64,000 nucleotides of DNA from Argopecten irradians (Eukaryota; Mollusca; Bivalvia; Pectinida; Pectinidae), in contig NC_091149.1 in NCBI RefSeq assembly GCF_041381155.1, forward strand, positions 13,842,609 through 13,906,608. The letters are read 5' to 3'. Both the position numbers and the translations under genes were made by a program. Within the stretch, counting starts at the first letter, position 1; each line of letters begins with the position of its first letter. Below the pieces are notes generated by a model, which was given only the letters and a program-made list of their open reading frames with translations, ran no database searches and was not told the origin of the DNA. Of the stretch, positions 16,961-38,310 are shown piece after piece.

Positions 16961-19060
16961 CGTGTTTCGTGTTCCTTTTCTGTGGTGCAAGGCCTGCTCA
17001 CAACACAACACGACGACCGGGTAGAAAAATATAAACAACAATAAAAATCACAAGATTTAAACAAGAGACCAGCTCTGTTTCGGACACGATAATTTATCTA
17101 TATATCTAATCCATTTTGGTGTGCTTGTCACATATTGAAAGTTTCGTGTGTCCTCAAAATATCGAAAGTTTTACGACTCGTCTAAGTTCCTGTAGTGTTC
17201 GTCTCGAGTCTCGGCAAGCTCACTGTCAATAAATCATGAATATTCATAAGTTTACCGTATTCGCACATCCGGGTAGGGAAAGTGCGCATGTGTGTTCGGA
17301 TGTTACCTAGAGACCGATAAACAAAGTTATAAAAGGTGAAAAATTACCTGTGCCCAGGTAAAGACTTTGCTTGAGTTTAAATTCTTGACACAGATGACCG
17401 GATAAGGCAACATGTTCAAATGTCAATATATCATATATACTTTAGACTTAGCTCTATTGAAGGCATTGCATATATGTATACACACATGTGGCCGCGGCGC
17501 GCACATGTCAATTAAAAAAAAACACAGTAATTATAATGTGCATACCGTATAGACAATAAGAAGAAACGGTGAGACGAGACATCTTTTTTATCCTTTAATC
17601 ATTATCCATAAAAAATGAACAATTTAAAAACTTCAAATGTATATCAACAATGTATAATTATGTACACGTATTTCTTTAAAATCGAATTTTGAATATACAT
17701 ATTATACATGATGCAGATTGAGGTAAAGTTATAAATCTCAACATATAATGTACATGTATTTAAACATTTTGATCATCTAAATTCGACGCCTTGTAAGATT
17801 ATTTGTAATTTTATATCTATCTAAACACTTTCTAATCATACACTGTAAAATTAATCAAATTGTAGGTTACATTAAAACAATATTTTTTCGACTCTAAAGT
17901 GCATGTACATGTTCAATGTATTCATACATTTTCATTTTCGGTTCATACAACACATTTTCGGTTCTGGAAACACAATCTAGATCTGTAGATATCTATGTTT
18001 CAAAATTTTGAAAAAATGACATGATAGAGTCTTAAGTTCTAATGAGAATGTGAAAATGATTAGAACAATACAAACATATATAGTATGAATTTAAATCTCA
18101 AAGAAATCGGCCTATTTATACTAAGTGCACATGTACACCAAAAGGTTCCTAAATTGGCGGGAAAAGATAAATGTCTGCAAGCTATTTTTGTTATGCCTAC
18201 TAGAGTTACTTCCCTTTGTTCGGAAAAAAAAGTCTGTACATAGATTTGACACTGCGTAATATCTTTGTACCATCGACTTAAACATACATGACTGTGTCAA
18301 AATTCCCCGATAAAAAACAACACAATTTGTTGAATCATTTGAAAAAGGTATGCATAGGTACATTTTGCAGTTTACCAGTTTCAAAACGAAAGTAACCGAG
18401 AGAAAAAAAGATTTTGAAAATGTGTTAGACAGAATCGACGCTGATTTTCAAAAAAATTATCAAAAAAAAAAAAATAAATAAAAAAAAAACTATAGTTAAA
18501 TTCTATCGTAATGAGCATCATTGGTAATTGTATAATGCATACTATGTAGTTAGATCGCATAGAAAGAAGGCAAGGACATTGCAGAAAGTTATTACATGTC
18601 AATGGCGGACATGTTTTTGGGACACCCTGCACATATATAAGCATGTTGACCCCAAAAAGGTACACATACTTTATTTAGATAGACGGTAATGGAGAGTTAG
18701 CAAAGTGGAAGCTTCACTTTCTTTCTCCATTTTAATGAAATTGTATTGAAATTAATTGCATAGACAGTTTCTGGCGTAATGGATATCCTTGTATAACACT
18801 TTGGGCACATTGGATGTTTGGGAATATAAAATAAAAAAAAAATATCAAAGAAACACAATTTAACATGGAATATAAGATATACATATAGATCTGAAGTAAG
18901 CTCCTTTCAGACCAATGATAATAGTTGATGCATACAATTGTATATTTCTGAAAATAGTGATGAAGACAAGATATTTTTTCTTCGTTTCTTCCCCAAATTT
19001 ATGTGTGCGTAATTTGTGGGATGGGGTATCAAGAAAATGCTCTGTACAATAGAAAACATT

Positions 19061-19427
19061 ATAAAATGCTCCACCGCCGACAGAGTGTAAACGGAACCCA
19101 CCATTTAAAAAATGACTGATGTTTAATCGTGTATATATGAGTCAAATTAACACAAAACTACATATAAAATAATTTATTTTACTTTTAGTCCATGCGTAAT
19201 TATGACCTCATTCTATGTAGGGCATAATGCCGTGGATTTTTTTTTGCGGGACGCAATTTATCATTTTCAATATTTTTATCTTGAAGTAAAATAAGAAGCT
19301 CAAACTTTTCAATGTTGGTTTAAATGTTGAAAAAGTAAGGTTTGTAACTGAGGAAAAAATCTAAATCGTCTGCACCTGTTTTTGATAGAGAAAAAAATAC
19401 CATTCGTCAACGGTGAAGCATCTTCAA
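19061..19427 (-). mobile_element. TTAA-type MITE, copy 2 (decayed)
   Basis: Left end aaaatgctccaccgccgaca, right end cgtcaacggtgaagcatctt, with the same interior as copy 1 but reversed. Both termini have mutated and the flanking TTAA is lost, so it looks older than copies 1, 3 and 4. Confidence 0.8.
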
Positions 19428-20415
19428 TAAAAAGAAATGGGAAAAATATTTTAGACATTATCTGAATCAAAAATTTCTTAATTTCTTATGAAAATGAAAC
19501 CATAACTGCATAGATAAAATCTGGTGAAATGAATCATACCACTATATATAGTTCAACTGTTGCCCTTTTTATGGTACTTTATATCACTGAAGCATGCCGC
19601 CGAAGCTATTTTTAAACATAAACCCTGCAATGAGATTTTCAGCGAAACATTTGAATCAGAAAAACAGTTTTTTCTGGAAATATGTCCTGTGGAAAGATCA
19701 TAAATGTTACTAGTGATGTGTTATGTACATATGATATTACCATTGCTTTGGAATCGAATTTCATTCTCCTCGTCATGACTAACTCCTGAAAATTGAACTC
19801 TCATCGAAAGGAAAAGTAAAAGGAGGGCAACAAGTCGTATGTGCCCCCAACAGTGAAGGTGCTTAAACTTTCGCTCTTTTGGTCATAGTGAAAACTGTTT
19901 AAGTGTTATACATATTCTTCTCCGTCTGCCTGAGGTTTAAACTTTCTAATTTTACCACTTTTTATAAAGTTGCAGCACTGGGAGTATCTTTAATTATAAA
20001 AGTAAAAAATCTTTTTAACGTGTACACGTGAAAAATAGGCTCGAAAGAAGCCGAATCATTCCGAAATCTTCCGAACATCGTCGTGACAATCTCGAAGTAA
20101 AACGAGAGTTGTGAAACCAAGAGAAAATATCAACAATTTTTCATAAACAAAATATGTGGTCGACCTCATCAGACTTTATCTACAAAGAAAATAATGCTCG
20201 CACGTACATTACAATATTTGATACACACAGCATTATACGGTAATGTGTAAATTGGATGTTTCAAATACTCAATCTGTGGACATATACTAGCATCAAACAC
20301 ATGTGTGCTGACGCTAGTTACCTGGCTCACCACGTGCAGGTCATGTCGAACGTCAGTCACGTGATACGATTAGGAATCCGACAAAACCCGAAGTCACTGA
20401 ACATGGCGGTGATTG

Positions 20416-20952
20416 TTTGTTTGTTTGTTTGTTTCTTAATTAACGTCCTATTAACAGCTATGGTCATGTAAGGACGGCCTCCCATGTATGCAATGTGTTG
20501 CGTGTATGTTGTGCGAGGTGCGTGTTTTGGGAGACTGCGGTATATTCATGTTGTGTCTTCTTGTATAGTGGAACTGTTGCCCTTTTTATAGTGCTATATC
20601 ACTGAAGCATGCCGCCGAAGACACCAGGCAACACACCCCACCCGGTCACATTATACTGACAACGGGCAAACCAGTCGTCCCACTTCCGTTATGCTGAGCG
20701 CTAAGCAGGAGCAGAAACTACCACTTTTATAGACTTTGGTGTGTCTCGGCCAGGGGACAGAACCCAGAGCCTTCCTCACAGGGGCGAGCGCTCAAACAAA
20801 GGTCAAAAGTGAGGTGGTGGTGTTAAGGGAGACTCTAGGAAGAACAAAGTAATTTAGTGAGAAAGAAAAGATAAGATCCTAAATTAAGTCGCCTTTTACG
20901 ATCATGCAATAGGGGCAGCAGGTACAATTCTTACGCCCTACCTGCAGGGCCA
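20416..20952 (-). mobile_element. Full-length long SINE (tRNA-like segment inside, CAAA tail), copy with TSD
   Basis: A 537-bp element flanked by the 11-bp direct repeat GGCGGTGATTG (20405-20415 and 20953-20963). On the minus strand it starts tggccctgcaggtagggcgt and ends with the ggacgttaatt block plus a CAAA-repeat tail. An internal part (gttgagcgctcgcccctgtg ... gggttctgtcccctggc in better copies) resembles pol III boxes A and B. Other good copies are at 29178-29700 and 43351-43881. Confidence 0.88.
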
Positions 20953-20977
20953 GGCGGTGATTGAAGGCGCTTTATTC

Positions 20978-21127
20978 TAAACCAGGAATATATGATTCCT
21001 AGATTTCGGCTCTCTTATAGGCCGACATATGCTTTTGGGGAGCTAAATCATCAAGTTACATGTCAATGTTTAAATATCAAATGTTTAAGTTACATATCGT
21101 TACAGTGAAATTAGCAGCAGTACAACT
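20978..21127 (+). repeat. Dispersed 150-bp repeat
   Basis: Matches 41029-41175 closely (aaccaggaatatatgatycc ... agatttcggctctcttatag ... ggggagctaaatcatcaag). Here a MITE (21128) starts where the repeat ends at caactttaa. The parent element is unidentified. Confidence 0.75.
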
Positions 21128-21496
21128 TTAAAGATGCTCCACCGCCGACAGAGCATAAATGATATTCATCATTTGAACAATAATTGGTGTTAAATTATAT
21201 ATATATATATATGTATAATTAACGCAAAAAAATAATATAAAATGATTTATTTCGCCTTTGATGCATGCGCAATCAGTACTTCATTCCATATAGGATATAG
21301 TGCCATGGAATTTTTTCGGGATGCAATTAATTATTTTTCATATTTTTAACTTGAAGTCAAATTAAAAGCTTAAACTTTTCATTGGTGGTAACGGTGTAAA
21401 GTAAGCAACTTTAGTAACTTAAGAAAAATACTAAATCGTATGATCCTGTTTTTGATAGTGAAACAATACCATTTGTCAGCGGTGGAGCATCTTTAA
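21128..21496 (-). mobile_element. TTAA-flanked MITE, copy 3
   Basis: TTAA at 21128-21131 and 21493-21496. Left end AGATGCTCCACCGCCGACA, right end TGTCAGCGGTGGAGCATCT. Inverted relative to copy 1. Confidence 0.87.
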
Positions 21497-21714
21497 TTGT
21501 CCTGTTAGTCATATCGATAGTAAAAGGTTAAAGGCCAGGAGTGGATGAGGTTATACATGTACAGGGAGCGGTACACAAAAATATTATGTGCATAAAGCGA
21601 AACATTGACTCCATGCCAGGCCTTTCACTGTATCGCTTTGAAGACTCGTTACCATGGTTACAGCCTCCTCAACTTCCGCACACCATCACCCTAACAGCTT
21701 TCTCTCTTCATAAA

Positions 21715-21772
21715 GTCACGTGACCTGTAGTGAAGTACGTCGAAAGGCTGTAAGTTTTCGACAGCCATCTTG
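21715..21772 (+). promoter_or_regulatory. Candidate promoter elements of the ErbB-like gene: E-box palindrome and YY1-like site
   Basis: GTCACGTGAC (21715-21724) is a 10-bp palindromic E-box of the USF/TFE/MITF type. GCCATCTTG (21764-21772) matches a YY1 core, often found near the start site of TATA-less promoters. Both lie within 90 bp of the ATG at 21803, and no TATA box is seen. Their use is inference. Confidence 0.45.
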
Positions 21773-21802
21773 TGTTTTGTTTTCTCACACATACAACCTA
21801 CG

Positions 21803-21899
21803 ATGTGGGGATTTGTTATACTTTATGTGTGTACACTCGGACTGACCACTGTCCACTCGGTTGAGATAGTGGACGTCGTGGATGATTTTTCGGGTACAG
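21803..21899 (+). CDS. First exon of the ErbB-like gene (signal peptide)
   Basis: ATG to donor (GGTACAG|GTATGA), 97 bases, ending in phase 1. It encodes a signal peptide and an acidic stretch ([13 protein letters not shown]) before the conserved ECQGT of the L domain, which begins in exon 2 at 29904. An 8-kb intron follows, containing a long minisatellite. Confidence 0.85.
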
Positions 21900-24800
21900 G
21901 TATGATATTTCTGACCACTTACATATGTCTTTATATATAGACTACACTATACGTGATATAGTACCCATGAGTGCTTGCTAATATCTTTTCTTATAATTAT
22001 GTAAGTAAAGTCTTCGAAACTCGAGCATAATTATTTCTATGCAATAACATATAGACGTGCACTCGTATTTTATCATGTATTATCGATATCTATTTTCATG
22101 TAATGGAAAAGAAATGTTTCTACTTGATGCACGTGGCTAATCAGGGAAATAAGCAGTACATCATATAAATCACACGACACATTAGTCTCCATGGAATTTC
22201 AGATAAACGACGAGTAATTAATAGTTTCCTTCTAACTTCAAATTTTCTGTCTTACTGCTTTACTTTTTATATATTCCACCATGCTGTTAGTATGTTTTCT
22301 AACATGATACGTATCCTTATATGACCCTGACTGTTGGTGTCCCCTTGACACCCATCCTTATATGACCCTGACTGTTGGTGTCTCCTTGACACCCATCCTT
22401 ATATGACCTGACGGTGTCTTCATGACATCTATCATCATATGACCCGGAATGTAGGTGTCTCCTAGACACGTATCCTTAAATGACATTGACTGTTGGTGTC
22501 TCATTGACACCAATCCTTATATGATCCTGACGGTGTCTTCATGACATCTATCATCATATGACTCTGACTATTGGTGTCTCTTTGACACACATCCTCATAT
22601 GACCCTGACTGTTGGTGTCTCCTCGACACACATCCTCATATGACCTTGACTGTTGGTGTCTCTTTGACACCCTTCCTCATATGACATTGACTGTTGGTGT
22701 CTCCTTGACACCCTTCCTCATATGACATTGACTGTTGGTATCTCATTGACACACATCCTTATATGATCCTGGCTGTCGGTGTCACCTTGACACCCATCCT
22801 TATATGACCCTGACTGTTGGTGTCTCCTTGACACCCATCCTCATTTGATCCTGACGGTGTCTTCATGACATCTATCATCATATGACCCTGACTATTGGTG
22901 TCTCTTTGACACACATCCTCATATGACCCTGACTGTTGGTGTCTCCTTGACACCCTTCCTCATATTACCCTGACTGTTGGTGTCTCTTTGACACCCTTCC
23001 TCATATGACCCTGACTCTTGGTGTCTCCTTGACACTCATCCTCATATGACCCTCGACAGTTGGTGTCTCCTAGACACACATTCTCACATGACCCTTGACT
23101 GTTGGTGTCTCCTTGACACCCTTCCTCATATGACATTGACTGTTGGTATCCCTTATATGACCCTGGCTGTCGATGTCCCCTTTACACTCATCCTTATATG
23201 ACCCTGACTGTTGGTGTCTCCTTGACACCCATCCTCATTTGATCCTGACGGTGTCTTCATGACATCTATCATCATATGACCCTGACTGTTGGTGTCCCCT
23301 TGACACCAATCCTTATATGGCCCTGACTGTTGGTGTCTCCTTGACACCCTTCCTCATATGACATTGACTGTTGGTATCTCATTGACACACATCCTTATAT
23401 GACCCTGACTGTTGGTGTCTCCTTGACATCCACCCTCATATGACCATTGACTGTTGGTGTCTCCTTGACACCCATCCTCATATGACCCTTGACTGTTGGT
23501 GTCTCCTGGACACCCATCGTAATATGACCCTTGAATGTTGATGTCTCCTAGACACCCGTCGTCATATGACCCTTGACTGTTGGTGTCTCCTTGACACCCA
23601 TCCTCATATGACCCTTGACTGTTGGTGTCTCCTTGACACCCATCCTCATATGACCATTGACTGTTGGTGTCTCCTTGACACCCATCGTCATATGACCATT
23701 GACTGTTGGTGTCTCCTTGACACCCATCCTCATGTGACCCTTGACAGTTGGTGTCTCCTAGACACACATCCTCATATGACCTGGACACCCATCGTAATAT
23801 GACCCTTGAATGTTGATGTCTCCTAGACACCCGTCGTCATATTACCCTGACTGTTGGTGTCTCCATGACACCTATCCTCGTATGACCCTGACTGTTGATT
23901 TCTCCTTTACACCTATCCTCGTATGACCCTCATTGTTGGTATCTCCTTGACATCTATCCTCATATGACCCCGACTGTAGGTGTCTCCTTGCTGTGCCATT
24001 GTGTTTCTCTCCCTGCTTTAACGATTTGCAAGCGTTTAAGTTGCATACCACATGCCTTTGGCTTTATAGATATACGGACACCTCTTTATATGAGAAATGT
24101 TGTGACACAAATATAGAGCTGTCCGAAGACCTGTGATAGTACATAATTTGTATAACTATCCCACTTCTGGATTATGATACTGTTTGTCGAGTCGGTAGAC
24201 ATTCTGTTTTCATAATCTGCTTAGTTTCTAACCATTTTTCTCGTTTGTGTGTTTGTTTGTTTGCTTGATTAATTAACGTCCTATTAACCCTGTTGCCCTT
24301 TTTATAGTGCTATATCACTGAAGCAGCCGCCGAAGACACCAAGCAACACACCCCTACCGGTCACATTATACTGTGATCTCGAGTTTGAGACCTTGAGAAG
24401 TCACCACGAATTACTCACCGATATCTTGAAGATTTATTTCCTGCATTTCTGGACTTTCCTTGGTTTATAATTCTGACAAACCCTTCAAATAGTCATTAAT
24501 TTAAATACATACCTGTGTATCCATCAAAATGGTATTTCTGTAATCATCATTTAGAACAACCAAATGAAACCATTTTTAACAAATGAATTTAATCAGTAAT
24601 ACTTTATTATCGATTATATTCGAGGATCGCAATTTCCGCGGTTTTGATTAAAAAAAACCAGCGTGAAATCGAATTTCAGTGTTTTTTGAAATTTTTCGAC
24701 CTCGACGTAACGGAATATAATGTGTTCAGGTATTTTTTTTTCAAATATTCCGCGGATAAAAGAAGTCCGATCCCTTTCTCTTTTGTTCTGAAAATAAAAT

Positions 24801-27800
24801 ATTTCTAAACAATCAAACGTTTGCGACAAAAGCATTGTCCTGCGGAATTGCGAAAATACCATCCCCACGAAAATAATGTTATTTGAAGAATAAGACTAGA
24901 GACAACCGGGAAGTATGGACTTCTACGTTGTAGACAGAGATAATGAAATCAGAAAATAAAACTGGGATGGTCCGGGGGTATTTTATGTCTGGTATTTCTG
25001 TAATATTTGACCTATAAGACCACAGAGGAATGTTATCACATTACTACATGTATTTAACTATTCTCACTGACACTTACGTTGTTTACTTATCAATGTATAT
25101 ACTAATTAGTGCCGTAATGAGGTCAGTCAGATGTTTCATTTTGCTTGGTTCATTGCCTCAGCATATAGGGTAAGTAGAATGCACATCTGTGTATTACCAT
25201 GCTTTTGAAAGATTTATTTCTTGGTATTTCTAAAAATCTTGTATAAAGTTGCATTCACGATATGAAGAAACAAGCCCTCTATCTCTGGGTTTCGAGTTCA
25301 AAACCCATGTGGGACATTTGCCAAGTACTGACCGCTGGTTATGTTTTTCTCCGATACTCCGGCTTTCATCCACCTACAAAACTGGCACATCTTCAAATGA
25401 CCATGGCTCGTAATATAGGACGTTTAACTACTAAAACCCAAACCTGATTCTATAGATCAGACATAATTTCCATGATCATGGCTCTATTATGATACATTTG
25501 TATCTTTTGTGTATTTAATGAACCCTGTAAGAGGCATTTGACATGAATTGTGGATATAAAATGTAGCTCAAACAGTGTTTATTCAATATCATCATCGTCT
25601 TCATTATCATTGATTCCTCACTGTTATCACTAAACGGTACCTTCTGTAACAGAACTGTATTTATGACAATAATTATCATCGTCATTATCATTGATTCCTC
25701 GTCGTCACCAGTATAACGCAATTACTTTAACAGAACCGTCGTTCTAGATCTGACGATCATTATCATCGCCGTCTTCGATGATTCCTCGTCGTCATCGACA
25801 TTATAAGAATACGTACAGTTACTGTCTTTCTGACAAGAAAGGGATACAAAGTACTGACCTCACAGCGAGAAGAGGTTTATTGGGGAACCGCACAAAGACG
25901 TCAAAATACCGAGAGTATAATAATCTACTCAAAGACGCATACACACGGCGGGTTACTGAGTACAAGGTACCAATTAAAACAAGAGAAAACATCTGTACAG
26001 TGTTGGGCTTCGTTCTACAGGCGGACGATCAGCTTTCTAAATATAGATCGTGCGCATGCCTTACAGGTGTAATAAACACCGACAACATATGTTTTTAATT
26101 CAATCTTAAAATCATGGTTGAATATTTCGGCAGAAATTTTGATTATTTACACAAAATGTTGTCTGCTATTTATAATTATATAATTTATTATGTATAAGAA
26201 TCAAATGCATACTTCGTGAATCTGTCGAGTTTAGCGTTCAAAATATACAACATTCTGAAAGATCTTTGCAGTATATTTTATGATATACCAATATGCATTA
26301 AATGAAAAGTTAATGTATCATGAATTATTTACAACAAAACAATTAAAGTTCCCATAAAGTAACGTTAAGCTAGATCTGAAATGTGAACTTTAAGTATAGT
26401 TAGGTAAAGCTAGGACAATTTTACTTTTCTTATGATTCTGTCGGCCTTTCAAGAAAGAATAAGAAGTATCGATAAACACACGTATGGCAAGTTTGACTCG
26501 TACAAAACAATCTATATAGCGGATTTTCAAAAATGGGCTAAAATGAATTACAACTAAAATGTCCATGTTTGTATTAATTTCTCCTAATTTAAACTAATCA
26601 TAATGACTATGGTCGCTCTGGGTTTTTTTTTCCATTTCTATCCATCAAAGCAATTGGAAACTTTCGCCACATTAAAATTCCGTAAAAGAGAAACGTGGAC
26701 CTTTACGGAAAGTGCCAAAAGCACCCGATTGGTAAAAAATAGTACATATTGTATTGTTATCCTGTTAGGACATGTTTGTTTGTTTTGGAAGACTGCCGTA
26801 TATTTGTGAGTGTCTACTTGTAAAAGAAGAACTCTTGCCATTTTTGTAGTGCTATCTTAATGAAGCACGCCCCACCAGAGGAAAATGCACAAACCAGACC
26901 AGACTCCCTTAATGCTGAGCGCTAAACAGGAGCAGAAACTACTACTTTTATAGACTATGGTTTGTCTCGGCCAGGGGGACAGAAGCCAGAACAATGATGA
27001 ATCTCCACAGGATTAAGCACTCGACCGATAACAAGAGAGACGTTAGGAAGAAAATATTAAATCCTAAATTTACTTGCCTATTAAGATTACATAACAGGGG
27101 CTGCAGGTACAATTTTAATGCTCTATCAGTGACATCCATACCCCTGCCACACCAATTTATTGCACGGACAAGTATGTTCACACAAGGTCGATTTTGAACA
27201 TAGAATTTCCTTTCCATTCGTGAACAAAAAGAAACACACAGAAACTTAATTCAAATGTAAATGGTGGATGGGCAATCTGATTAAAATACAGATCCTTATA
27301 ACCATTCCGTTCTAAAGAGGATCTGAAAATTCTCATAAGGGGTCACGTCCAGATTACTTTTATACCACGTGAACTTCAGATCAAATGCAGTTTCTACACA
27401 CCTTGCTACATTAATTGAAAACGTCATTTCGCCCCAGTAAACATAAACAACTACATGTAGCTTTGTCGTGCTCTTTGGACGAGATGACTACGTACACGAA
27501 CATAATTTAGATAGCATTTTCAAACTATTTCGTCCCCTGAAATTCACTGTCAAAATTTTGCAAGTAGCAATTTGATTGGCCATTTCCAAAGGTCACCTGG
27601 ACACGACCCCTTATGGAAAAAAAACCCTCAGATCCTCTTATCAAACGTAGTGATAATAAGGATCTATATTTTAATCAGATTGGTACATGGGGTACTTCCC
27701 TACTGAATGTGCATAAGCTATAATAGTAAACGGCGACTTAACTTGGGATCTTATATTTTCTCTTCTTCCTAACGTCTCTATTGGCACCGCCTCATTTTAG

Positions 27801-30800
27801 CATTCGCCACTGTGAGGAAGACTGTCCCCCCCCTGACCATTGTCTATATAAGTGGTAGCTTCTGTGCTCTTGCTAAGCGCGCAGCAAAATGGGAGTGGAA
27901 CGACTGGTTTGCCCGTTGAAATATTACGTGATCGGATGGGATTGTTTTTTCGGTGTCTCTGGCAGCATGGTTCCATCTTTTTTTCCCAAAACACGAAAAG
28001 ACACTGGTACATGGAAGGCAATCTTTAAACGTCTCTATCCGTTAACAGGACAAACATCAAAATACACAGTATTGTAGGTCTACATATATAGGCACTGGCT
28101 TTAATACAACAGTTCCACTACACAAGAAGACACAACACAACACGAATATACCGCGGTCTTCCAAAACACACACCTAGCACTTCACACACGCTATAACACA
28201 CCGCTGAATGGACGTCCTTACATGACCTTGGCTGTTAATAGGACCTTAATCAATCAAACAAACAAATCCTATTACAGCTCTATCTATAGGATATCTTGAA
28301 AAAATAATTACTTGACGAACATGTATTAATTGACACCAATAACAGCATGTAAGTTAATTAAATTAACTCAAGATCGTGAAGTTCACATGTACGAGAATCC
28401 CCGACATTGAAAAGACAAGCTTCCGTTGTGCGTTGGAGTACGTATTTCCGGCGTGGTCGTGACCGTGACAAGTGACACGCGTGCGACTGAATACATGTTC
28501 GCTTTGACATGTCTTCACTCTAATTACCATGTACATAATGCTCATATTGGGTTTTGTTAGGAAGCAATCGTCTTGTGTATGCGGTTGCGACAGAGAAAGT
28601 TTATTTTACATCCATCGAAACACGATCTGTCTGTATATGTTATTCAAATTATTAAACAATGTTGACATGTCCATGTATGACCCATAAACATTTCCCAATC
28701 CCAGCATGCTGATGGCTCAAATATGTTCCGATCAGCCTATATTTTTTTATATAAGCATTACTAGTCTCGATATCTTTTGGCTTCATGAAGCTATAGACAA
28801 AAACGGACTGACATTCCTTTTCATAGAAGCGAAAAACGGAAGGGCATTCTTAATAGACGCTAAACGTCTATGAAAAAGAATATGTCCGTTTTTTTATCCA
28901 TGACTTAATCAATTCCAAAGATATTGAATTTGTTTGTATGTTTGGTGCATTAGCCTGTTAATAGCCATGGTCATGTAAGGACGGCTTCCCATGTATGCGA
29001 TGTGTAGTGTGTATGAAGTGCGTGGTGTATGTTTTGAGACCGCGGTTTATTCGTGTTGTGTCTTCTTGTGTAGTGGAACGTTTGCCCTTTTTATAGTGCT
29101 ATATCAATGAAGAATTGAAAATAATGCCTAGAATTTAATTTCAATAACTCAGTACTAATTAGATATCACTTTCATGCAGGCCCTGCAGGTAGGGCGTTAG
29201 ATCTGTACCTGCTTCCTCTATTGCATGATCGTAAAAGGCGACTAAATTTAGAATCTTATCTTTTCTTTTCTTCCTAACTGACTTTATGTTTCCTAATAGC
29301 TCCCTTGACACCGCCTCACTTTTGGCCTTGAGTTGAGCGTTCGCCCCTGTGAGGAAGGCTCTGGGTTTTGTCCCCTGGCCGAGACACACCAAAGTCTATA
29401 AATGTTTCTGCTCCTGCTTTGCTCTCAGCAAACAGGGAGTGGGACGACTGGTTCGCCCGTTGTCAGCATATTGTGACCGGGTGGGATGTGTTGCTTAGTG
29501 TCCTCGGCGGCATGCTTCAGTGATATAGCACTATAAAAAAGGCAACAGTTCCACTAAACAAGAAGACACAGCAGGAACATACCGCAGTCTCCCAAAAAAC
29601 GCACCTCGCACTTAACACACGCTACATACTGCGTACATGGGAGGCCGTCCTTACATGACCCTGGCTGTTAATAGGACATTAAAATAATCAAACAAACAAA
29701 ATCACTTTCATGCTTTTACCTTTTTTTACAAACCCATTTTATTGGCTATACCCGCTGTTACTGCATGGTAATATGGTGATATTAAAGTTAGAACGCAAAC
29801 ATAAAAAACTCAAATATCATATTTGAAATTTAATTATGAACTAAATTTTTGTACATAATTATATTTCGTCCAAAAATTAAGAGATATGTTTGATCATTTA
29901 CAGAATGTCAGGGGACGCATGTAGGGTTTGGGTTTTCGGGCGGTCACGAATTCCATTACGAGGCTCTGAAGAGACGATACAAAGATTGCACATACGTTGA
30001 GGGAAACCTTGAAATCACCAATCTGGTCAACTCTGCCAACATAACCTATGACCTCAGCTTCCTGTCTCAGATCGAGGTTGTGACGGGCTATGTTCTTATT
30101 GGTCTATTGGACGTCGAGTACATCCCCCTGACGAGCCTTCGACTTATCAGAGCAGACAACACATACAGCATCATGGGAGAAGAGTACGGCCTCGTTTTGG
30201 CATTAACTGCAGAGGCTGAAGGGAAGGAATTTCAAAAGGAGAATACTACTGATGGCGAAGTGCAGGAAATATATAGACATGGCTTGGTGGAGCTTCAACT
30301 TCCGTCACTAAAAGGTAGGTTATTGTTGCCATAGAAACGATGTTGTTTCTTTCATATACAAATGAATATTGCTTTTTCATAATCTTTGAATATAGTTGCA
30401 GTCTTGTATTGCCAATGTTTTATGCATGAATGAAGTAAAGCACAGCAATATACGTATAGAAACTGTTACCAGTATACAACTACAACTAAGATTACCACCA
30501 TAAAATATTTACGAATTTAATAAAGTAATCTGAATTTGAATAAAATCGCTAAAGAATAATAAATCTTATTATTCATTAAGATTATATTCGTTTTGTTTTC
30601 TATAAGTCAGTGAACTCATCAATAATGTTTATATAACTAATGTTTTCCGTTAACGTTTTTAGCAATAAAATAACTATCTCTATTTCTGAGAGGGAAAACA
30701 ATAGAAAGCTGCGCTTAGGATTTTCAATTTCATTTCAGAAATTTCTAAGGGGAAAGTGTTGTTCTATAAGAACCCAATGTTGTGTTTTGTTAACACTGTA

Positions 30801-32587
30801 AACTGGCACGTGATCGTTCCCGGGAGAGAGGACCCCGTTTACTACGGCGACGACGCCTACAGATTTGACTGTAAGTATCGGTAGTGATGACTTAGTTATG
30901 TAATAGAATGCATCTATATGGTGACACCACTTATGATATAGTTAATGATGTAGCGACGCGTGGATGAATGAATCGCTGAAATGACATCTTTTGTAAGCTT
31001 CTGAGCTTGTTTGATGTACGTTAATACTTTCTTCAACTGGTATAGTACTATACATGTACATGCGCGTACTAAATGGCAATACCGCATATCAAGCTGCTAA
31101 TTTGAGGAAATGTGTGAAGCAAGAATATCAGCCTCTTGTATTGATTCAGAACATATAATCGAGGCAATACCTTGTTCAGTATTTTATGGAAGGAATCATG
31201 ACTGCATCATTCAAGATGGCTGCCATCACGTGCCGTATGTAGATAGCCATCTTGGATGATGCATTATGGAGACATTTTACCAGTGCCAGAGAATCATGAT
31301 ATATCTCGTTTAGAATTCTCAGTGATTGATGACTTGGTTAAGTCTTTGTAACTTGGAAAGCACCCAACCAATATGATTTACTTTAATCAATTACACAATG
31401 AGAGCTTATGTATATCTTGTGTTAATTATCTCCCTTAGGTCCACTGGAATGTAACCCTGCATGTCGACAGGATGACGAAACGTCCCACTGTTGGGGACGT
31501 AACCCTCTTATGTGTCAGCGACGTAAGTATAAGCCAACTCGCCCCACTTTTGCTGACTAAATAAGATTAATTGTACCAAGCAATTTACATACAATGGTTA
31601 ATTTATAATATCATTCATTGTGCAGTTGATTTTCAGTGTGTCGTATCGCTTGTTGAGGTCATTCAGTAACACTAGTTTTACATTTGGGTAGGAAATGGGA
31701 CGACTGGTTCGCCCGTTCTCACTATGACTGAGTGGGGTGTATATGTTTGGTGAACCCGGTGATATGCTTCGGTGAGGTAGCACTATAATAAGGACAGAAG
31801 TTCCACTATTACAAGGAGACAAAACACGAATATACCCCAGCCTCCCAAACACACAGACATCCATGAGCCACATATACTGTAACAGATATCGTTTATGAAA
31901 CTAAGAACACTTGTATCGGAGCACGTGATCAGTGTAATAAGCTCAGGTTCCAAACCGTAATTCAATTCGATTTGAAGATAATGTTGATTCTCTTTGCTAG
32001 GTATTACGACCCATACAACTTGAACTGGTGTTTACTACAATATATTTGGAAAATACAAAATCTGTTCAAATTGGAAATTCAATTTTACAGACGAGTCGCC
32101 AGTGAGATGCCATCCAGACTGTCCTGGGCGTTGCTATGACGGCTACATCCTGGGCTGTTGTCATCCGGAGTGTGCCATTGGCTGTTATGGCCCACGTGAT
32201 ACAGATTGTGTGGTATGATTGGCTACTTTCAATGATTACTTCACACTTTGATTTGAAAAGTAGATAAAGTTTAAGCTTATATATACATGAGAGTTCTTTT
32301 TCATCTGAAATGCATTATTCTTTTTAAATATCGTTTGCATGGGTTGTGGCGAATTGTTTGGTCAATGAATTCAGTTTTCCTTTTGACGTACAATGCTGTT
32401 AAACTGTGCAAAAATAACCTCAAACTTCTAACCAATGAAAATTAGCGTAACAAATGAAATCAATTTATGTAAATATATCCTCATTTATTTACAGCTATGC
32501 AAATACTTCAAACACGAAGGAAGGTGTATTTCATCTTGTCCAGCAGGAATATCATATCGGAAAGGACAGGAATGTATCAGATTATGA
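21803..32587 (+). CDS. Secreted EGFR/ErbB-like ectodomain protein (L1 plus partial furin-like region), possible decoy
   Basis: Six exons (21803-21899, 29904-30314, 30739-30870, 31439-31522, 32091-32212, 32495-32587) join in frame to 312 residues. Residues 1-20 form a signal peptide ([16 protein letters not shown]). Residues 33-213 are an EGFR-type receptor L domain: [10 protein letters not shown], then [31 protein letters not shown] and KNPMLCFVN match ErbB landmarks. Residues 214-312 are the start of the furin-like domain ([36 protein letters not shown]). A TGA follows ...[11 protein letters not shown], where ErbB proteins have the dimerisation arm. There is no second L domain, transmembrane helix or kinase, and none is visible downstream. 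Known truncated ErbBs (human herstatin) and secreted receptor decoys act as antagonists; that role here is inference. Confidence 0.9.
22311..23990. repeat. Minisatellite of about 40 units, 41-42 bp each
   Basis: The unit contains catcctcatatgaccctgac followed by tgttggtgtctccttgacac. Each unit carries two small palindromes, TCATATGA and GTGTC-n5-GACAC. A shorter variant (cctgacggtgtcttcatgac) recurs near 22405, 22528, 22853 and 23243, suggesting higher-order duplication. In the 42-bp versions the minus strand stays open (14-residue repeat containing [13 protein letters not shown]), which is a by-product of unit length. It lies in intron 1 of the ErbB-like gene. Confidence 0.93.
24249..24372 (-). 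mobile_element. Long-SINE fragment (3' part)
   Basis: Tail side gtgtttgtttgtttgcttga with aacgtcctattaac, then an internal jump to 'tgttgccctttttatagtgc ... cgaagacaccaagcaacaca'. Truncated with an internal deletion. Confidence 0.75.
25268..25447 (+). mobile_element. tRNA-derived SINE, 'ctccggctttc' core
   Basis: Box B-like ggtttcgagttcaaaaccca, centre tgtttttctccgatactccg with gctttcatccacctac, end atataggacgtttaac and a short A/C-rich tail. Intron 1 of the ErbB-like gene. Confidence 0.65.
25588..25836. repeat. Three degenerate tandem units of about 85-90 bp
   Basis: Each unit has atcatcgtcttcattatcat or a variant, gattcctc, then a taacagaactgt-like end. The plus-strand open frame at 25778-26098 starts in the last unit; it has no recognisable domain and is not called as a gene. 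Confidence 0.6.
26765..27127 (-). mobile_element. Long-SINE fragment
   Basis: Shares the family landmarks gtttgttttggaagactgcc, tgctgagcgctaaacaggag, tatagactatggtttgtctc and gctgcaggtacaattttaat. Decayed, with small deletions. Confidence 0.8.
27273..27682 (+). mobile_element. MITE with CAATCTGATTAAAATA ends, full copy
   Basis: A 410-bp element whose left 26 bases and right 26 bases are inverted copies with one mismatch (CAATCTGATTAAAATACAGA versus CAATCTGATTAAAATATAGA and on). The flanks gtggatggg and gtacatggg suggest a diverged 9-bp target duplication. The copy at 53029-53397 has a perfect one, pointing to a MULE-type (9-bp) rather than hAT (8-bp) element. Confidence 0.85.
27729..28268 (+). 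mobile_element. Long SINE, near full length with internal replacement
   Basis: Runs from the ggcgacttaacttgggatct head block through gaggaagactgtcccccccc, gcccgttgaaatattacgtg and accttggctgttaatag to a CAAA tail. About 110 bp in the middle (27970-28085) does not match other copies. It lies 46 bp after the MITE at 27273. Confidence 0.75.
28799..28890. repeat. Imperfect inverted repeat (hairpin)
   Basis: The left arm aaaacggactgacattcctt with tttcatagaa pairs with the right arm tctatgaaaaagaatatgtc and ccgttttttt. An inner stem, atagacg/cgtctat, sits between. Intronic; probably a fold-back relic. Confidence 0.6.
28927..29111 (-). mobile_element. Long-SINE 3' fragment
   Basis: Reads from the tail side (tgtttgtatgtttggtgcat) through atggtcatgtaaggacggct to tgccctttttatagtgctat, then stops. 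It is a 5'-truncated copy just upstream of the full copy at 29178. Confidence 0.8.
29178..29700 (+). mobile_element. Full-length long SINE with 13-bp target duplication
   Basis: Flanked by ATCACTTTCATGC at 29165-29177 and 29701-29713, so both boundaries are exact. Head aggccctgcaggtagggcgt, internal tRNA-like part near 29330-29395, tail ggacattaaaataatc plus CAAA repeats. It lies 203 bp upstream of exon 2 of the ErbB-like gene, so it is a recent-looking insertion close to an acceptor. Confidence 0.9.
31690..31880 (+). mobile_element. Long-SINE internal fragment
   Basis: Landmarks aaatgggacgactggttcgc, ggtgatatgcttcggtgagg and gaatataccccagcctccca. Lies in intron 4 of the ErbB-like gene. Confidence 0.75.
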
Positions 32588-32660
32588 ATGTCAATCGATT
32601 TTACTGTCATCGGAGTATGAATGCCATTCGATTTTGCTGTCATCGGAGTATGAATTTTAA
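32583..32660 (+). repeat. 33-bp tandem duplication starting at the ErbB-like stop codon
   Basis: Units 32583-32615 and 32616-32648 (tatgaatgycawtcgatttt ... ctgtcatcggag) plus a partial third. The first unit contains the TGA stop, so the duplication copied the stop region into the 3' UTR. Confidence 0.85.
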
Positions 32661-33342
32661 TGCCATCAGACAGTAAAGATACTAACAGCCACTTGGCGTG
32701 CCCAGTTCAAATAAGGTGAGCACCAGAATGATTCACACTGTGAATGCCGTCAGACTGAACGACACAAGACATTAAGTAGAAATTCTCCTCATAACTGACT
32801 GGGATTACTATAATGAATGTATTAAACCGTGAACGCAATCAAATGTGACGACGTTCATTTCAGGATTAACAAGTTGTGAATTTGAACTTGAGTATTGCAT
32901 ATTGTTAGAATATTTGTTGAGTATGTATATGTATATTGATTTATTATGTATATATTTTGATAAAATTATTGAAGAAAATTGAACAGGGTCATTCAATCTA
33001 TTTTTGTCATGTTGAGTTAGGGTTTCACTGCCATTTTGGGATTCAATCCAATTTATATTTACTTTCATATATTTATTATGCATATTCATACACCAACAGA
33101 AACATGCCTTTTATTTATGTCAGTTTTGTTTCACAATCCAATTATTTATTGAGATTATCTAATATTGAAATTTTAATTTATATTGCATGGCTTAACTAGT
33201 CACAGATGCGTTTTAAAATGTAACGTCTATTTTAATGGTTAAGAAAATACATTTGAGTCTTAAGTTATTTAATGATTTCTGCGCCAGTATTTACATGTTT
33301 TTAAACTGTGGGTGCTTATAAGAATATTTTCAGGTACTTATA

Positions 33343-33348
33343 AATAAA
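33343..33348 (+). terminator. Candidate poly(A) signal AATAAA for the ErbB-like gene
   Basis: First canonical AATAAA that I noted downstream of the stop at 32587, in acttataaataaaaatatta. Use is inferred from position only. Confidence 0.35.
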
Positions 33349-33439
33349 AATATTAATATAATTTCAAAATTTTCAATCCGATATGTGATCATATCCCGTT
33401 GTTTGTTTTGGAAATATTTGCATGGAATCAATTGCCTAG

Positions 33440-33570
33440 CTAACAAAACATACCGTAGCCTCGCAAAGCGTCGGCATTCACACAGATGAATACAATGCAC
33501 ACATGAATAGCCGTATATAAATGACTCTGACTGTTACTAGGACGTTACATGTAAACTTAATAAACCAAAC
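33440..33570 (+). mobile_element. Decayed long-SINE 3' fragment
   Basis: Has 'ataccgtagcctcgcaaagc', 'gaatagccgtatataaatga' and 'ctgttactaggacgttac' in the order of the family 3' end, followed by an A-rich tail. Confidence 0.5.
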
Positions 33571-33633
33571 CAGTTTTTCATATCTGCGTTACATTAATAA
33601 TATATAGATCAAAACAACAGAAATTCAGATTGG

Positions 33634-33985
33634 TTAAAGATGCTCCACCGCTGACAAATGGTATTTACAGTAGCAGACGATTTCGTATTACATATGTAGT
33701 TACAAAAGTTACTTACTTTACACCATTACCACCATTGAAAAGTTTGAGCTTCTAAGTTTACTTCAAGTTAAAAATATGAAAAATAATTAATTGCATCCCG
33801 TAAAAAGTCCGTGGCACTATCTCTTATATAGAATGAAGTAATTATTGGGCATACAATATAGGCGAAATAAGATATTTTTATGTAATGTTTTGTGTTAATT
33901 AGGCATATGAATATTCGATTAAACACCAATTATTGTTCAAATGATGAGTATCATTTATGCTCTGTCGAAGGTGGAGCATCTTTAA
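33634..33985 (+). mobile_element. TTAA-flanked MITE, copy 4
   Basis: TTAA at 33634-33637 and 33982-33985. Left end AGATGCTCCACCGCTGACA, right end TGTCGAAGGTGGAGCATCT. Same orientation and interior as copy 1 (9013-9376), with a short deletion near the left end. Confidence 0.87.
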
Positions 33986-34552
33986 GTGATTAAAATATCC
34001 CTAAATTAAAAACAAAGTATTAATCCACCTTTTGATTGTGAATTAGAAACCCAATTTCCAAGTACGAACAGTAACTCAGTATTTTTCCGGGTACTCTTGT
34101 TTACAACTAGCGAAAATCGACATTTTTGAGAGGCTTATTCTAGCCTATCCGAGTTATTTCCCTTTCCCCCACACGCAGAAACACATCACTACTAAGATTA
34201 TCTACATAAATCTACCGTCATAACATTAGTGTCCGGATGATACAAAGAAATAAAAGAACCTTTTTTGAAAATTCATCATACCAATTTTATTTTTTATTAT
34301 GCAACGTTTGATTTTAAATATGCATCAATATTAATGTATGTTTAGGTTTCCTTGACCAACGAACTGTGTTGTATTAAACTCCCTGATCTTAATTTGTTAT
34401 CAAAATTATGTATTAAATATTAGTACAAATTACTTGGCTAGTTATTTTTGCATCTTAACAGACATCGTTTTTGCGGACTAATATATATATATATGACGTT
34501 AACTGGGAGAAATTTTTGACAATTTTTTCTCCAGTAATCTATTGAAAACCAT

Positions 34553-34744
34553 GGGATTTGTTGCTTAAGTTATATAGCACTAAAAAAGGGCAAGAGCTCC
34601 ACTATACAAGAAGACACAAACGAACATACGCTGTCTCCCAAAACACACATCACGCAGTCATATACACTATATACCGAATACATGTGAGGCCGTTCTTAAA
34701 CGGCACTGGCTGTTAATAGGAGGTTAATTAATCAAACAAACAAA
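34553..34744 (+). mobile_element. Long-SINE 3' fragment with CAAA tail
   Basis: Landmarks gttatatagcactaaaaaag, actatacaagaagacacaaa and ggctgttaataggaggttaa, then atcaaacaaacaaa. Confidence 0.8.
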
Positions 34745-35524
34745 ATTGATGAATTAATTAATTAAGTTATGAAAATCATTCAAATGGATAGTCAAACATA
34801 TATGATGCCCTATACACATTAGTTACAACATATAATTTATTCACTGTAAATTTTTTCTTATATTTCATGTATGTTAAGAAGAAAACATACCTACAGAAAT
34901 AACTTCAATTACCAATAAAACTGTATAAATGTGATATGGAATTGTACAACAAATTGATTTCATGCTTTAACGTATATATTCACATTTGTAATTTTATTAG
35001 CTTTCCGATAATACTACAGTTATCATTACCTTCTTCAATTTAATAAAAATAGATAAAAGGTTATTTAATTGTCATACCTCTGCTCGTCTTATTATCCGCC
35101 GTCATTCTAACTACCTGGCGTTAGTTAATTATTACTGCGTCAGACAGACGGATTCACAGCGAAACGAATATTCATTGTTAACACGCAGAGAATCATGCAT
35201 TTATTTGGTGTTGTAACCTCATCTTTTGCATTCATTATGAATTTCTTATACTATAATTGTTTTTAAGAAGCTTAATTTTTTTTGCGGTCAGATAGTGGCA
35301 GTTAATGATGCTCTCTATGTTCGTTCTCTATTAAATTATTCTTTTTATCGACACTGTTGAAAACAAACTCACAGAAATACAACAAACCCATGACCAATGA
35401 TAAGATAACAGCAAACATATTAACTAGACAAAAATATCTAATGTTGTTATCGCTGTTTGAAGAAATTCAGTCATATAAATGTATAATTGATTAATTCACA
35501 GACGACAGAATGGGGGTCATCGTG

Positions 35525-35910
35525 CATTACTTGAGATCATAAAGGCCACCAAATTTATGATATTGCCTTCTCTTCTTCCTAAATAACTTTGTTCTTCCTA
35601 ACGTGTCCCTTGACACTACCTCACTTTTGGCCTGAGATTGAGCGTTCGCCCCAGTGTGGAAGGTTCTGGGTTTTGTCCCCTGGTCGAGACACAAAGTCTA
35701 TAAAAGTGGTAGATTCTGCTCTGCTTAGCGCTTAGTATGAAGGGAGTGGGACGACTGGTTTGCCCGTTGTCAGTATAATGGGACCGGAAAGGGTGTGTTG
35801 CTTGGTGTCTTCGGCGGCAATTTCCGGTGATATATCACAATAAAAAGGGCACATTAATATTGTTCTTCACTCACGAATGACACCACATTCACGGGAGGCC
35901 GTCATTGAAA
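35525..35910 (+). mobile_element. Long SINE lacking both extremities
   Basis: Includes the tRNA-like part (gagattgagcgttcgcccca ... ggttctgggttttgtcccct) and the gacgactggtttgcccgttg block. The 3' end decays after tcacgggaggccgtc. Confidence 0.8.
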
Positions 35911-36141
35911 TATAATAAACCAAACCAGACATGTGCATTTTAAACTTTGGAAGATGTCACGAGAGCAGTAGGATATAAGATCAGTCTGTAACCTTTTACA
36001 ACAACCTTTGAAAGTAATTTATTTATAATATTGTAAACAAAAGATCGCGTTATCGTTTGTATTTTTCCAGATTACAAGCGATATATATCATATTTTACCT
36101 TTATTCAAAGTAGACTTCTCTATACACATAGGGGAGGTTTT

Positions 36142-36168: not shown

Positions 36169-38310
36169 ATTAAGATAGGTATGGACCCATATCCGGTTGA
36201 TGCGTGCGCATATGCTGATTTCTGGTGTTGACAGTTCGCTAGATAAACAAGCGATATCAATGTCAACAACCAGTTCATATGATTATAAGGACAAAGCCCT
36301 TCGTGCTCTAAGGACGAAGGGTACGAAATGCGAAGCACTTCTAAGGTACGTAACACGTACATGAAAATATAAGAAAAATCTCTATCTTTAAAATCCTATC
36401 CCACACACTGACAGCTTCAGTTTGCGGCCGCCATTTTGTTATACCTATGGGGAGGGGAATCACAGGTAATCACCATCGATATGATGCTTTGAAGTAAGCT
36501 CATTGTATAATCGAGCGGTTCAAACGCTCTTATGATCTGACACAAACGTAATCTTTATCCGGCAGAAGCTCAGTGCTATCCGCTCTTTATTTGCAATCGT
36601 CAAGTGATTTAGACTACCTTTCAATTTAACAAGCTGACAAAAAACGGAATATCCGTTGCGGAAATAAAATTTCTTCGTTCTCAAATGGAAGTTTCCTTCT
36701 CAAATGAGGGTTTTTGGACAAGGACAGAGTTCGAATACATGAATAAAAAAATAAACAGAAAATTCGGCTCCGTTATTTCCATAAATTGCGCTTTTTAACA
36801 TTGTGCTGTATAACCAATAGGCACTAAAACATCCGGCTGCCTTCAGTCATATTAACCATTACTTGATATTTTTGCAGTTCACAAATTTAAATGGGATTTC
36901 AGTGATGCATTTTTCTGTATTATAAGCGTGTTTCTCGGCCGGTATATGGCTTCAGACGATGGTCTAGTTTTGGTCACTTGCAGTACCGTGGAAAATAGCG
37001 TCGGGTGGAAGCCATGCTTTCACATTTTCACTCCGGGTCGTGTTTGGGAATTCGATCGGTATTGCTATTGATACGAAGATAGTTTGATAATATTGAGATT
37101 AATGCATGTATAATATTGAGAATAATGCAAGTATTAACGGCATTAAAAACATCGTAACAAGTATTTTTGTATCCAGAGTAAATTACGAAACTTAGTGGTT
37201 AATCATAAAATACTGACTGCGTAAACAAAACATGGCGACCGAAAAGTAAAGCATGGTTTCTCCAACTGATCGTGAACTACAAGTACGTAACGTTCACAAA
37301 TAAAGATATTTGAAACTGTTAATGCCTTAAGTAGATGTGTTAGGTAATGCTTTTATGGAATTAGACTGCAGAAACGATGTGCATCGATGACGAATATCTT
37401 TTCCGATTCATGTCAAAAATGACAAGCCGTACGAACACTAAAACGTGTTGACCATGCCGGTTTGAAGTGAAGACAGTTTACATGGAAACATTTATTTGGT
37501 CGTAAATAACATTGAGTTAAATATGGGCACTTTCCATAATTCCTAATTCTTAATAAATGAAATAATAACTTGAACTGAATGACAGAAATAACAAACACAA
37601 ACAGTTGCAGGGTATTCAACACACATGTTTCGTAGTATCGGTTGTGTAGGATATGTTGTTTTTAAGATGAATTAGCAATCAAAATTTGTTGTTGCAGCGG
37701 CATTTCATTTCATACTGACATAAGTCTAGTTTTATTTTGATTGGCCAAAAATAAATAAATTTGCCATATCTAAGGCCACGAAGAACATATTTCTGATATA
37801 ACATGCATATAGATATAGATCTGATATCAATAGTTCTATCTTACCACAAATATGTACATATTTTCCTTTTTTATTTTCTTGTTAATGTATTTTCGGTGTT
37901 TGTTATCGACTGACCCGCTTGGTTGTCACAGGGATTGTTATACGAAAAAGAAATAACGACTTTATTCGGACACTGTTATTTCCTATTTTTTAATTGAAAT
38001 ATATTTTCGTTGGGCTAGTCTGGTGTGGCCAAATAAACAAAACATTCCTACCTTTTAGTATGTAAGAAAATTAAAACAGTCCCAAATTGTTCTGTAAAAA
38101 CGTAGAAATATGCTGTCAACAGAAGCACGGACAATTTAAGTGACTTGTTTGAGTACCATTACAAGTAAAACATATGAAAGAGCGGAGATATTTTACAAGA
38201 CTACGTCCCACACACGGCCCCACACGCAACTTTCACACCGATAAGAGATTGTACGCGTGGTTAAGTAAATGCTGAGCCGTGGCAAAGTTAGCTGTTGAGA
38301 ACCAAGCAAG

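Follow-up and report, generated by a model that had tools for sequence, protein, structure and literature searches.

The window considered here, a stretch of 64,000 nucleotides of contig NC_091149.1 (C16:13842609-13906608), carries at positions 21803-32587 of its plus strand a six-exon gene for the L1 domain and the first part of the cysteine-rich region CR1 of an ErbB-type receptor, termed L1-CR1 gene in the following. It is tentatively proposed, at a probability that we place somewhat short of even, that this gene is the truncated 5' part of the animal's second ErbB gene, that it encodes a secreted protein with a shortened dimerisation arm, that the L2 half of the same receptor is found at 18.54 Mb of the same contig and that the protein is likely a negative modulator of EGFR. 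The gene structure, the domain content, the truncation, the full cysteine set, an EGFR elsewhere in the genome and the second locus are all read from the sequence itself.

Structure of the L1-CR1 gene and comparison with the own EGFR

All six exons joined in the first-pass annotation were rebuilt from the raw sequence, with AG/GT borders and continuous phases throughout. The joined frame of 939 nt including the TGA encodes 312 residues, the five introns measure 8004, 424, 568, 568 and 282 bp, and an in-frame stop is located 5' of the start codon at 21731. Exon 1 (21803-21899) contains the start codon and a signal peptide predicted by hydropathy only, it ends in phase 1 and it is the single match in a signal-peptide-exon scan of window positions 19000-29900 on the plus strand. 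Intron 1 harbors a minisatellite of 41-bp units (22313-23990). Exon 2 (29904-30314), which starts within the codon preceding the conserved CQGT, encodes the bulk of the L1 domain as judged by Pfam and by comparison with the animal's own EGFR, and it includes a 16-residue insertion carrying one NxT site. Exon 3 (30739-30870) encodes the end of L1, exon 4 (31439-31522) the first stretch of CR1, exon 5 (32091-32212) CR1 modules and exon 6 (32495-32587) the arm module of CR1, in which the loop is shortened by 15 residues and the closing cysteine is retained, followed by the residues IRL and the TGA.

The domain content was also confirmed as first described, i.e., a signal peptide by hydropathy, followed by L1 and the start of a furin-like region with Pfam scores over the cut-offs. 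Recep_L_domain covers residues 60-195 (4.2e-18, 66 bits, cut-off 21.8) and Furin-like residues 221-310 (3.6e-13, 50.1 bits, cut-off 26.8); the growth factor receptor domain IV scores under its own cut-off. In a sequence search of the PDB the top matches are ErbB receptors (1n8y, 2.4e-51), the nearest solved chains being ErbB2, ErbB4, EGFR and ErbB3, and the majority of the 60 chains listed align over residues ~34 to 304. By hydropathy, no transmembrane segment was found within the 312-residue protein, and hydrophobicity peaks at the signal peptide and in internal L1 strands rather than at the C-terminus. Measured against a full ErbB receptor, the gene has ErbB-type L1 and CR1, its arm loop falls short of full length, and L2 and kinase better than E = 1.5 are missing for 71 kb downstream. 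Measured against a dedicated secreted decoy, the separate gene, the signal peptide and the absence of an anchor were all found, the latter two by hydropathy.

The TGA had been described as lying just where ErbB receptors carry the dimerisation arm. The stop is indeed in the arm exon, but the arm module itself is present: it comprises 11 residues between its two flanking cysteines versus 26 in the own EGFR, and the stop follows three codons past the closing cysteine. Homology to EGFR ends at this cysteine codon TGT, after which the frame reads ATC AGA TTA TGA, and these final 12 nt (three codons and the stop) sit inside a 33-bp tandem repeat of 2.4 copies (32576-32655, plus strand) at the edge of the receptor homology. 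By tblastn, the 71 kb 3' of exon 6, made up of the remaining window and a further 40 kb, gave no hit to L2 or kinase exons better than E = 1.5, which extends the 5 kb over which such exons had been reported absent; some of the matches at E >= 1.5 contain stops. Human EGFR (E up to 10) and the exons of the own EGFR (E up to 20) served as queries. As positive controls, the L1 of the L1-CR1 gene was recovered by both queries and the own EGFR from L1 to kinase by the human query; transmembrane exons are beyond the reach of this search, as the own query does not include that exon and the human query missed that of the own EGFR, too. The 631-bp flank at 32570-33200 occurs a single time in the genome, and the 3' end of the L1-CR1 gene looks like the edge of a rearrangement.

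In the 846-Mb assembly searched (1508 contigs), the own EGFR is located on the contig of the window at C16 ~24.130-24.147 Mb on the minus strand, ~10.3 Mb from the L1-CR1 gene. The exons located encode L1, CR1, a normal arm loop (CPLVMDYNIFTLKAEINPKGKYKYGSLC), L2, CR2 and kinase; the signal-peptide, transmembrane and tail exons are not among them. After the signal-peptide exon, the exon lengths are 411, 132, 84, 122 and 93 nt (the last with the stop) in the L1-CR1 gene versus 351, 135, 84, 122 and 142 nt in the own EGFR, whose 142-nt arm exon splices onward, unlike exon 6 of the L1-CR1 gene. Because the intron phases of both genes are the same and the exon lengths are similar, the L1-CR1 gene is considered an intron-keeping duplicate formed at the DNA level; an origin as retrocopy is ruled out by the introns in the receptor's phases. 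A herstatin-like splice form is ruled out as well, since the kinase-bearing EGFR is a separate locus. The earlier claim of a separate gene rather than a splice form thus stands, while the suggested monomeric decoy or binder of a new partner is hypothetical. The claim is supported by this EGFR elsewhere on C16, the 71 kb in which no L2 or kinase was detected and the lack of a near-identical copy: a genome search with the L1-CR1 protein gave 13 matches, of which the near-identical ones are its own six exons alone.

The L1-CR1 protein and the own EGFR share 43.2% identity over 259 aligned residues, which is close to the identity of the own to human EGFR (42.4% over 264), so that the copy is either old or fast evolving. 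In this region the own EGFR is nearer to human ERBB3 (47.5% over 263) than to human EGFR, a lean not seen in the L1-CR1 protein with 37.2% identity to human ERBB3 and 38.5% to human EGFR over 247 residues. All 20 aligned cysteines are kept and, assuming the human disulphide pairing, they presumably form ten complete pairs, of which the last one closes the arm loop. This clean disulphide end constitutes only mild evidence, because with the same pairing 30 of the 146 possible truncation points in CR1 break no pair. Differences to the own EGFR at codon positions 1, 2 and 3 amount to 116, 104 and 173 of 259, respectively. When the own EGFR exons were mutated uniformly at random to the observed nucleotide divergence of the L1-CR1 gene, the frame stayed open in 0 of 1000 simulations at full divergence, in 0 of 1000 at half and in 14 of 1000 at a quarter of it. 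As far as such a comparison of sequences goes, this shows that the gene was under constraint for most of its divergence, not necessarily after the truncation. In a tree of six sequences the L1-CR1 protein is placed on a long branch (1.45 versus 0.61) beside the own EGFR, with support 66.

A genome-wide kinase search resulted in at least 62 matches at 1e-6, with 134 of 235 candidates scored. Among the scored candidates no second near-identical EGFR kinase was found, the near-identical matches being the exons of the own EGFR, and no kinase match is listed near the L1-CR1 gene on C16. The best other extended matches show 38-39% identity (C6) and shorter pieces elsewhere up to 55%; a much-altered second EGFR kinase may be encoded elsewhere in the genome. 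Recurring tyrosine-kinase matches with equal or near-equal scores were observed at C15:31.20-31.29 Mb and on the small contig C127.

A second fragment gene and a possible common origin

A genome-wide search with the L-domain model at E 0.001 (11 candidates scored) gave six matches: two on C10, which we take to be insulin-receptor-like, two in the own EGFR, one in the L1-CR1 gene and one at C16:18.539 Mb. The last one, at C16:18539419 on the minus strand, flagged a second predicted fragment gene, termed L2 gene (C16:18537190-18545368, minus strand), 4.66 Mb from the L1-CR1 gene. It consists of five predicted exons on C16, all on the minus strand, i.e., a signal-peptide exon candidate (18545368-18545284), the L2 exons A (18540492-18540381; 112 nt, 112 in the own EGFR), B (18539620-18539453; 168 versus 165 nt) and C (18538131-18537932; 200 nt, 200 in the own EGFR), and exon D (18537326-18537190) with the stop. 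Joined, they encode 233 residues comprising signal peptide, L2 and the first CR2 module. The signal-peptide exon candidate was obtained with the signal-peptide-exon scan, has a phase-1 donor in the right phase and is the sole candidate in 19.5 kb upstream of the L2 exons. Applied to both strands of 24 sources, namely the window plus 23 segments of 10 kb each, the scan yielded 21 matches, among which only this candidate attains the level of exon 1, apart from exon 1 itself; this level was set after exon 1 was known, and upstream of the own EGFR only a weaker match was obtained, so the sensitivity of the scan is limited.

Residues 28-214 of the L2-gene protein match residues 308-499 of the EGFR chain 3i2t (2e-50), presumably the Drosophila EGFR, and several EGFR chains are matched over ~311-503; Pfam reports the receptor L domain alone. 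The identity to the own EGFR is 39.5% over 200 residues. Of ten cysteines of the own EGFR eight are kept, the other two falling in the unmatched tail, and one additional cysteine is present at residue 107. In simulations to equal divergence, the frame stayed open in 0, 10 and 53 of 1000 runs at full, half and quarter divergence, respectively. No further L1, CR2 or kinase better than E = 1.5 was found around the L2 gene (own EGFR query, 40 kb; human EGFR, 20 kb). The 5' border of exon A (the acceptor and the stretch coding for CSGITEPEFL) is present in about three tandem copies at C16 ~18540500-18540720.

The two fragments cover complementary parts of the receptor with zero overlap, as the L1-CR1 gene extends to the arm module and the L2 gene contains L2 and the start of CR2. 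The discovery of the L2 gene suggests that a second ErbB gene was broken and was the source of both fragments, and both genes are probably remnants of one such paralogue, each coding for a predicted secreted fragment that would probably act as antagonist of ErbB signalling. The L1-CR1 gene would be the 5' part of the animal's second ErbB gene, from which everything past the arm module was lost, and the L2 part of this lost paralogue probably persists on the other strand, at a distance of 4.66 Mb, in the form of a predicted secreted protein. An inversion with one end inside the ancestral gene would leave such an opposite-strand arrangement, the L2 gene reading leftwards from the higher coordinate. 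A dispersed repeat of ~370 bp flanks the L1-CR1 gene in opposite orientations (window 21127-21495 and 33632-33985), and more copies are found at window ~9013-9377 and ~19059-19428, in the EGFR locus and near the L2 gene; these copies are a possible substrate for inversion.

Further pieces with receptor-like features were observed. The edge of a CR2 exon of the own EGFR recurs at C14:20.2346 Mb (L045 4966-5067) as a copy of 102 bp with 97% identity; the 10 kb examined around it contain no further clear piece of EGFR. At C1:7064550-7064678 (L015) a cysteine-rich stretch, perhaps of a furin-like repeat gene, is 49% identical to L1-CR1 residues 263-304, and at C16:30908564-30908827 (L042) a Furin-like match over the cut-off contains an internal stop and lies within a 1039-aa open frame. 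In the window itself, a 325-aa open frame on the plus strand at 38299-39276 has a coiled-coil-like start and a C1q-like end (by reading alone).

Possible function and competing explanations

We infer that the L1-CR1 gene is expressed and its product secreted, that both fragments originate from an inversion and that the protein binds a partner of the ErbB system as antagonist. The L1-CR1 protein, which carries the L1 half of the ligand site, would bind an ErbB ligand or receptor without dimerising through an arm and without signalling. The 312-residue protein, if secreted, would thereby dampen the remaining EGFR, either by capturing ligand on L1 or through contact with the receptor. In receptor structures the arm of the partner docks partly on CR1 residues that lie beyond the truncation point. 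As these residues are absent from the L1-CR1 protein, docking as a false dimer partner seems less probable than ligand binding. L1 domains of the ErbB3 type bind neuregulins well. A joint action of both fragments as a two-part ligand trap, in which the ligand would join the L1-CR1 and L2-CR2 proteins, as the two halves of the cleft of one broken receptor, into a kind of truncated soluble ErbB ectodomain unable to dimerise via the arm, is considered very improbable.

Several points weigh against the proposal as a whole. The location on the same contig on opposite strands is compatible with an inversion and no proof of it, as the orientation has an even prior chance. No clear breakpoint match was found between the fragment loci: a blastn comparison, with repeats neither masked nor classified, gave 28 rows from 32401-36000 and 82 from the whole window against the L2 locus, many of them repeat-like and none on the exons of either gene. 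The groupings of the fragments with the own EGFR are weakly supported, with 66 in the tree of six sequences and 59 in the L2 tree of five, for which an L1 sequence served as outgroup. The constraint may stem from the phase as whole receptor, and it gives no date for the truncation. As regards the gene model itself, a genome-wide, exon-by-exon Furin-like search at E 0.001 did not list the L1-CR1 exons. At the L1 positions assumed to contact EGF, the L1-CR1 protein agrees with the own EGFR in 3 of 14 cases, compared with 65 of 140 for the rest of L1. Since human EGFR and ERBB3 themselves have the same residue at only 4 of these 14 positions, the comparison speaks neither for nor against ligand binding. 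According to the respective passage, the chief receptor-binding part of herstatin is its intron-encoded tail (PMC9100580), and the L1-CR1 protein has no such tail. Finally, a second oyster EGFR is doubtful. In the section concerned of a survey that took in kinase-bearing sequences only, two EGFRs were reported for Lottia gigantea, one of them with a probably inactive kinase, and two for Crassostrea gigas (PMC4914847), whereas the oyster kinome paper, as far as excerpted, appears to treat EGFR as single (PMC4883820). Taken together, a second molluscan ErbB that drifts from signalling is plausible but not settled.

Among the alternatives, it is unlikely that the L1-CR1 gene is a recently truncated remnant, whose frame and splice sites have survived unbroken from the former receptor and which is now neither expressed nor selected. 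The coincidence of the homology end with the tandem repeat would be expected of such a rearrangement, and the extra cysteine 107 of the L2-gene protein is probably unpaired. However, the L1-CR1 gene retains every one of the 20 aligned cysteines as well as intact splice borders, the absence of L2 or kinase remains better than E = 1.5 from the 71 kb indicates that the truncation is probably not very young, and an own signal-peptide exon candidate, as present in the L2 gene, is unlikely for a passive leftover. Doubtful to the same degree is a role outside the ErbB system, e.g., as a structural or immune protein that uses the L-domain fold with a new partner. The low agreement at the L1 contact positions and the 16-residue insertion in L1 would fit with this role, but contact positions vary among paralogues regardless, as seen for human EGFR and ERBB3, and there is no pointer to any specific other partner.

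It is rather improbable that the six exons form the front of a longer gene, with a donor in exon 6 or exon 5 that splices to a final exon far away, in which case the TGA would mark the end of one isoform. A donor-like site within exon 6 (32524, AAG|GTGTAT) outscores the accepted donor of exon 5 (6.0 versus 5.2), and a transmembrane exon is beyond the reliable reach of the tblastn search; against this, the 71 kb yielded neither an L2 nor a kinase exon better than E = 1.5, and no kinase match is listed nearby on C16. That mis-scaffolding tore one receptor gene apart is extremely improbable: both halves are on one contig in opposite orientation, but each has its own signal-peptide exon candidate and its own stop, matches to CR2 outside the own EGFR are weak or confined to small pieces (C14, C1, C9, C10), and no second near-identical EGFR kinase is listed among the scored candidates.

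Known secreted receptor fragments and significance

Inhibition of this kind by secreted receptor-like proteins has been reported for Sdr and herstatin and proposed on genetic grounds for HPA-1/2, and the split of the ligand cleft over two genes looks new. Sdr keeps both L domains, which are here found on separate genes, and it belongs to the insulin-receptor family, in contrast to the ErbB-type L1-CR1 gene; both are separate genes for secreted receptor-like proteins with neither a transmembrane segment nor a kinase. According to the passage on it, Sdr of Drosophila is the product of a gene of its own, a secreted receptor-like protein with neither transmembrane segment nor kinase, which interacts with insulin-like peptides and reduces signalling by the receptor (PMC12398695). 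In C. elegans, the extracellular HPA-1 and HPA-2 by genetics most likely antagonise EGFR or the EGF/EGFR interaction, as stated in the part cited (PMC3227454), and the nematode IRLD family is described in the relevant excerpt as having L domains, no kinase and weak homology to EGF receptors (PMC9262388). These are likewise separate L-domain genes without kinase, but belong to a weakly EGFR-related nematode family, whereas the L1-CR1 gene is near ErbB and contains CR1 modules and the receptor's introns. A soluble ErbB ectodomain piece of similar length is p45-sErbB3, which originates as splice form of the receptor gene and not from a separate locus. It is mentioned as a serum marker (PMC6567184). 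Herstatin, a splice form of HER2, is outlined in the excerpt as a secreted inhibitor composed of extracellular domains (ECD) I and II without transmembrane and kinase parts (PMC9100580). It resembles the L1-CR1 protein in being secreted and in lacking these parts; however, it arises by intron retention from the receptor gene, its ECD II includes the arm and it has a 79-residue binding tail, whereas here a separate gene, a shortened arm loop and no tail are found. The second EGFR of L. gigantea is also molluscan and may have drifted from signalling, but it retains the kinase domain.

In the passages on Sdr, HPA-1/2, IRLD, herstatin and soluble ErbB3 no pair of genes, each with one half of the ligand cleft, is described, and no paper title reporting such a molluscan gene was found in the open-licence literature, which was listed in part for some topics. 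A count restricted to kinases, as the passage on its scope indicates for the EGFR survey, would have missed genes of the L1-CR1 type (PMC4914847), and kinase-based receptor surveys would miss such genes in general. If expressed, the L1-CR1 gene would provide a mollusc-like animal with a candidate ErbB inhibitor that is secreted and separately encoded, in which the arm loop is shortened and the disulphide frame kept. The arrangement in two genes permits a direct test of joint ligand binding by both halves, and it would show how a receptor broken by rearrangement could persist as soluble parts.

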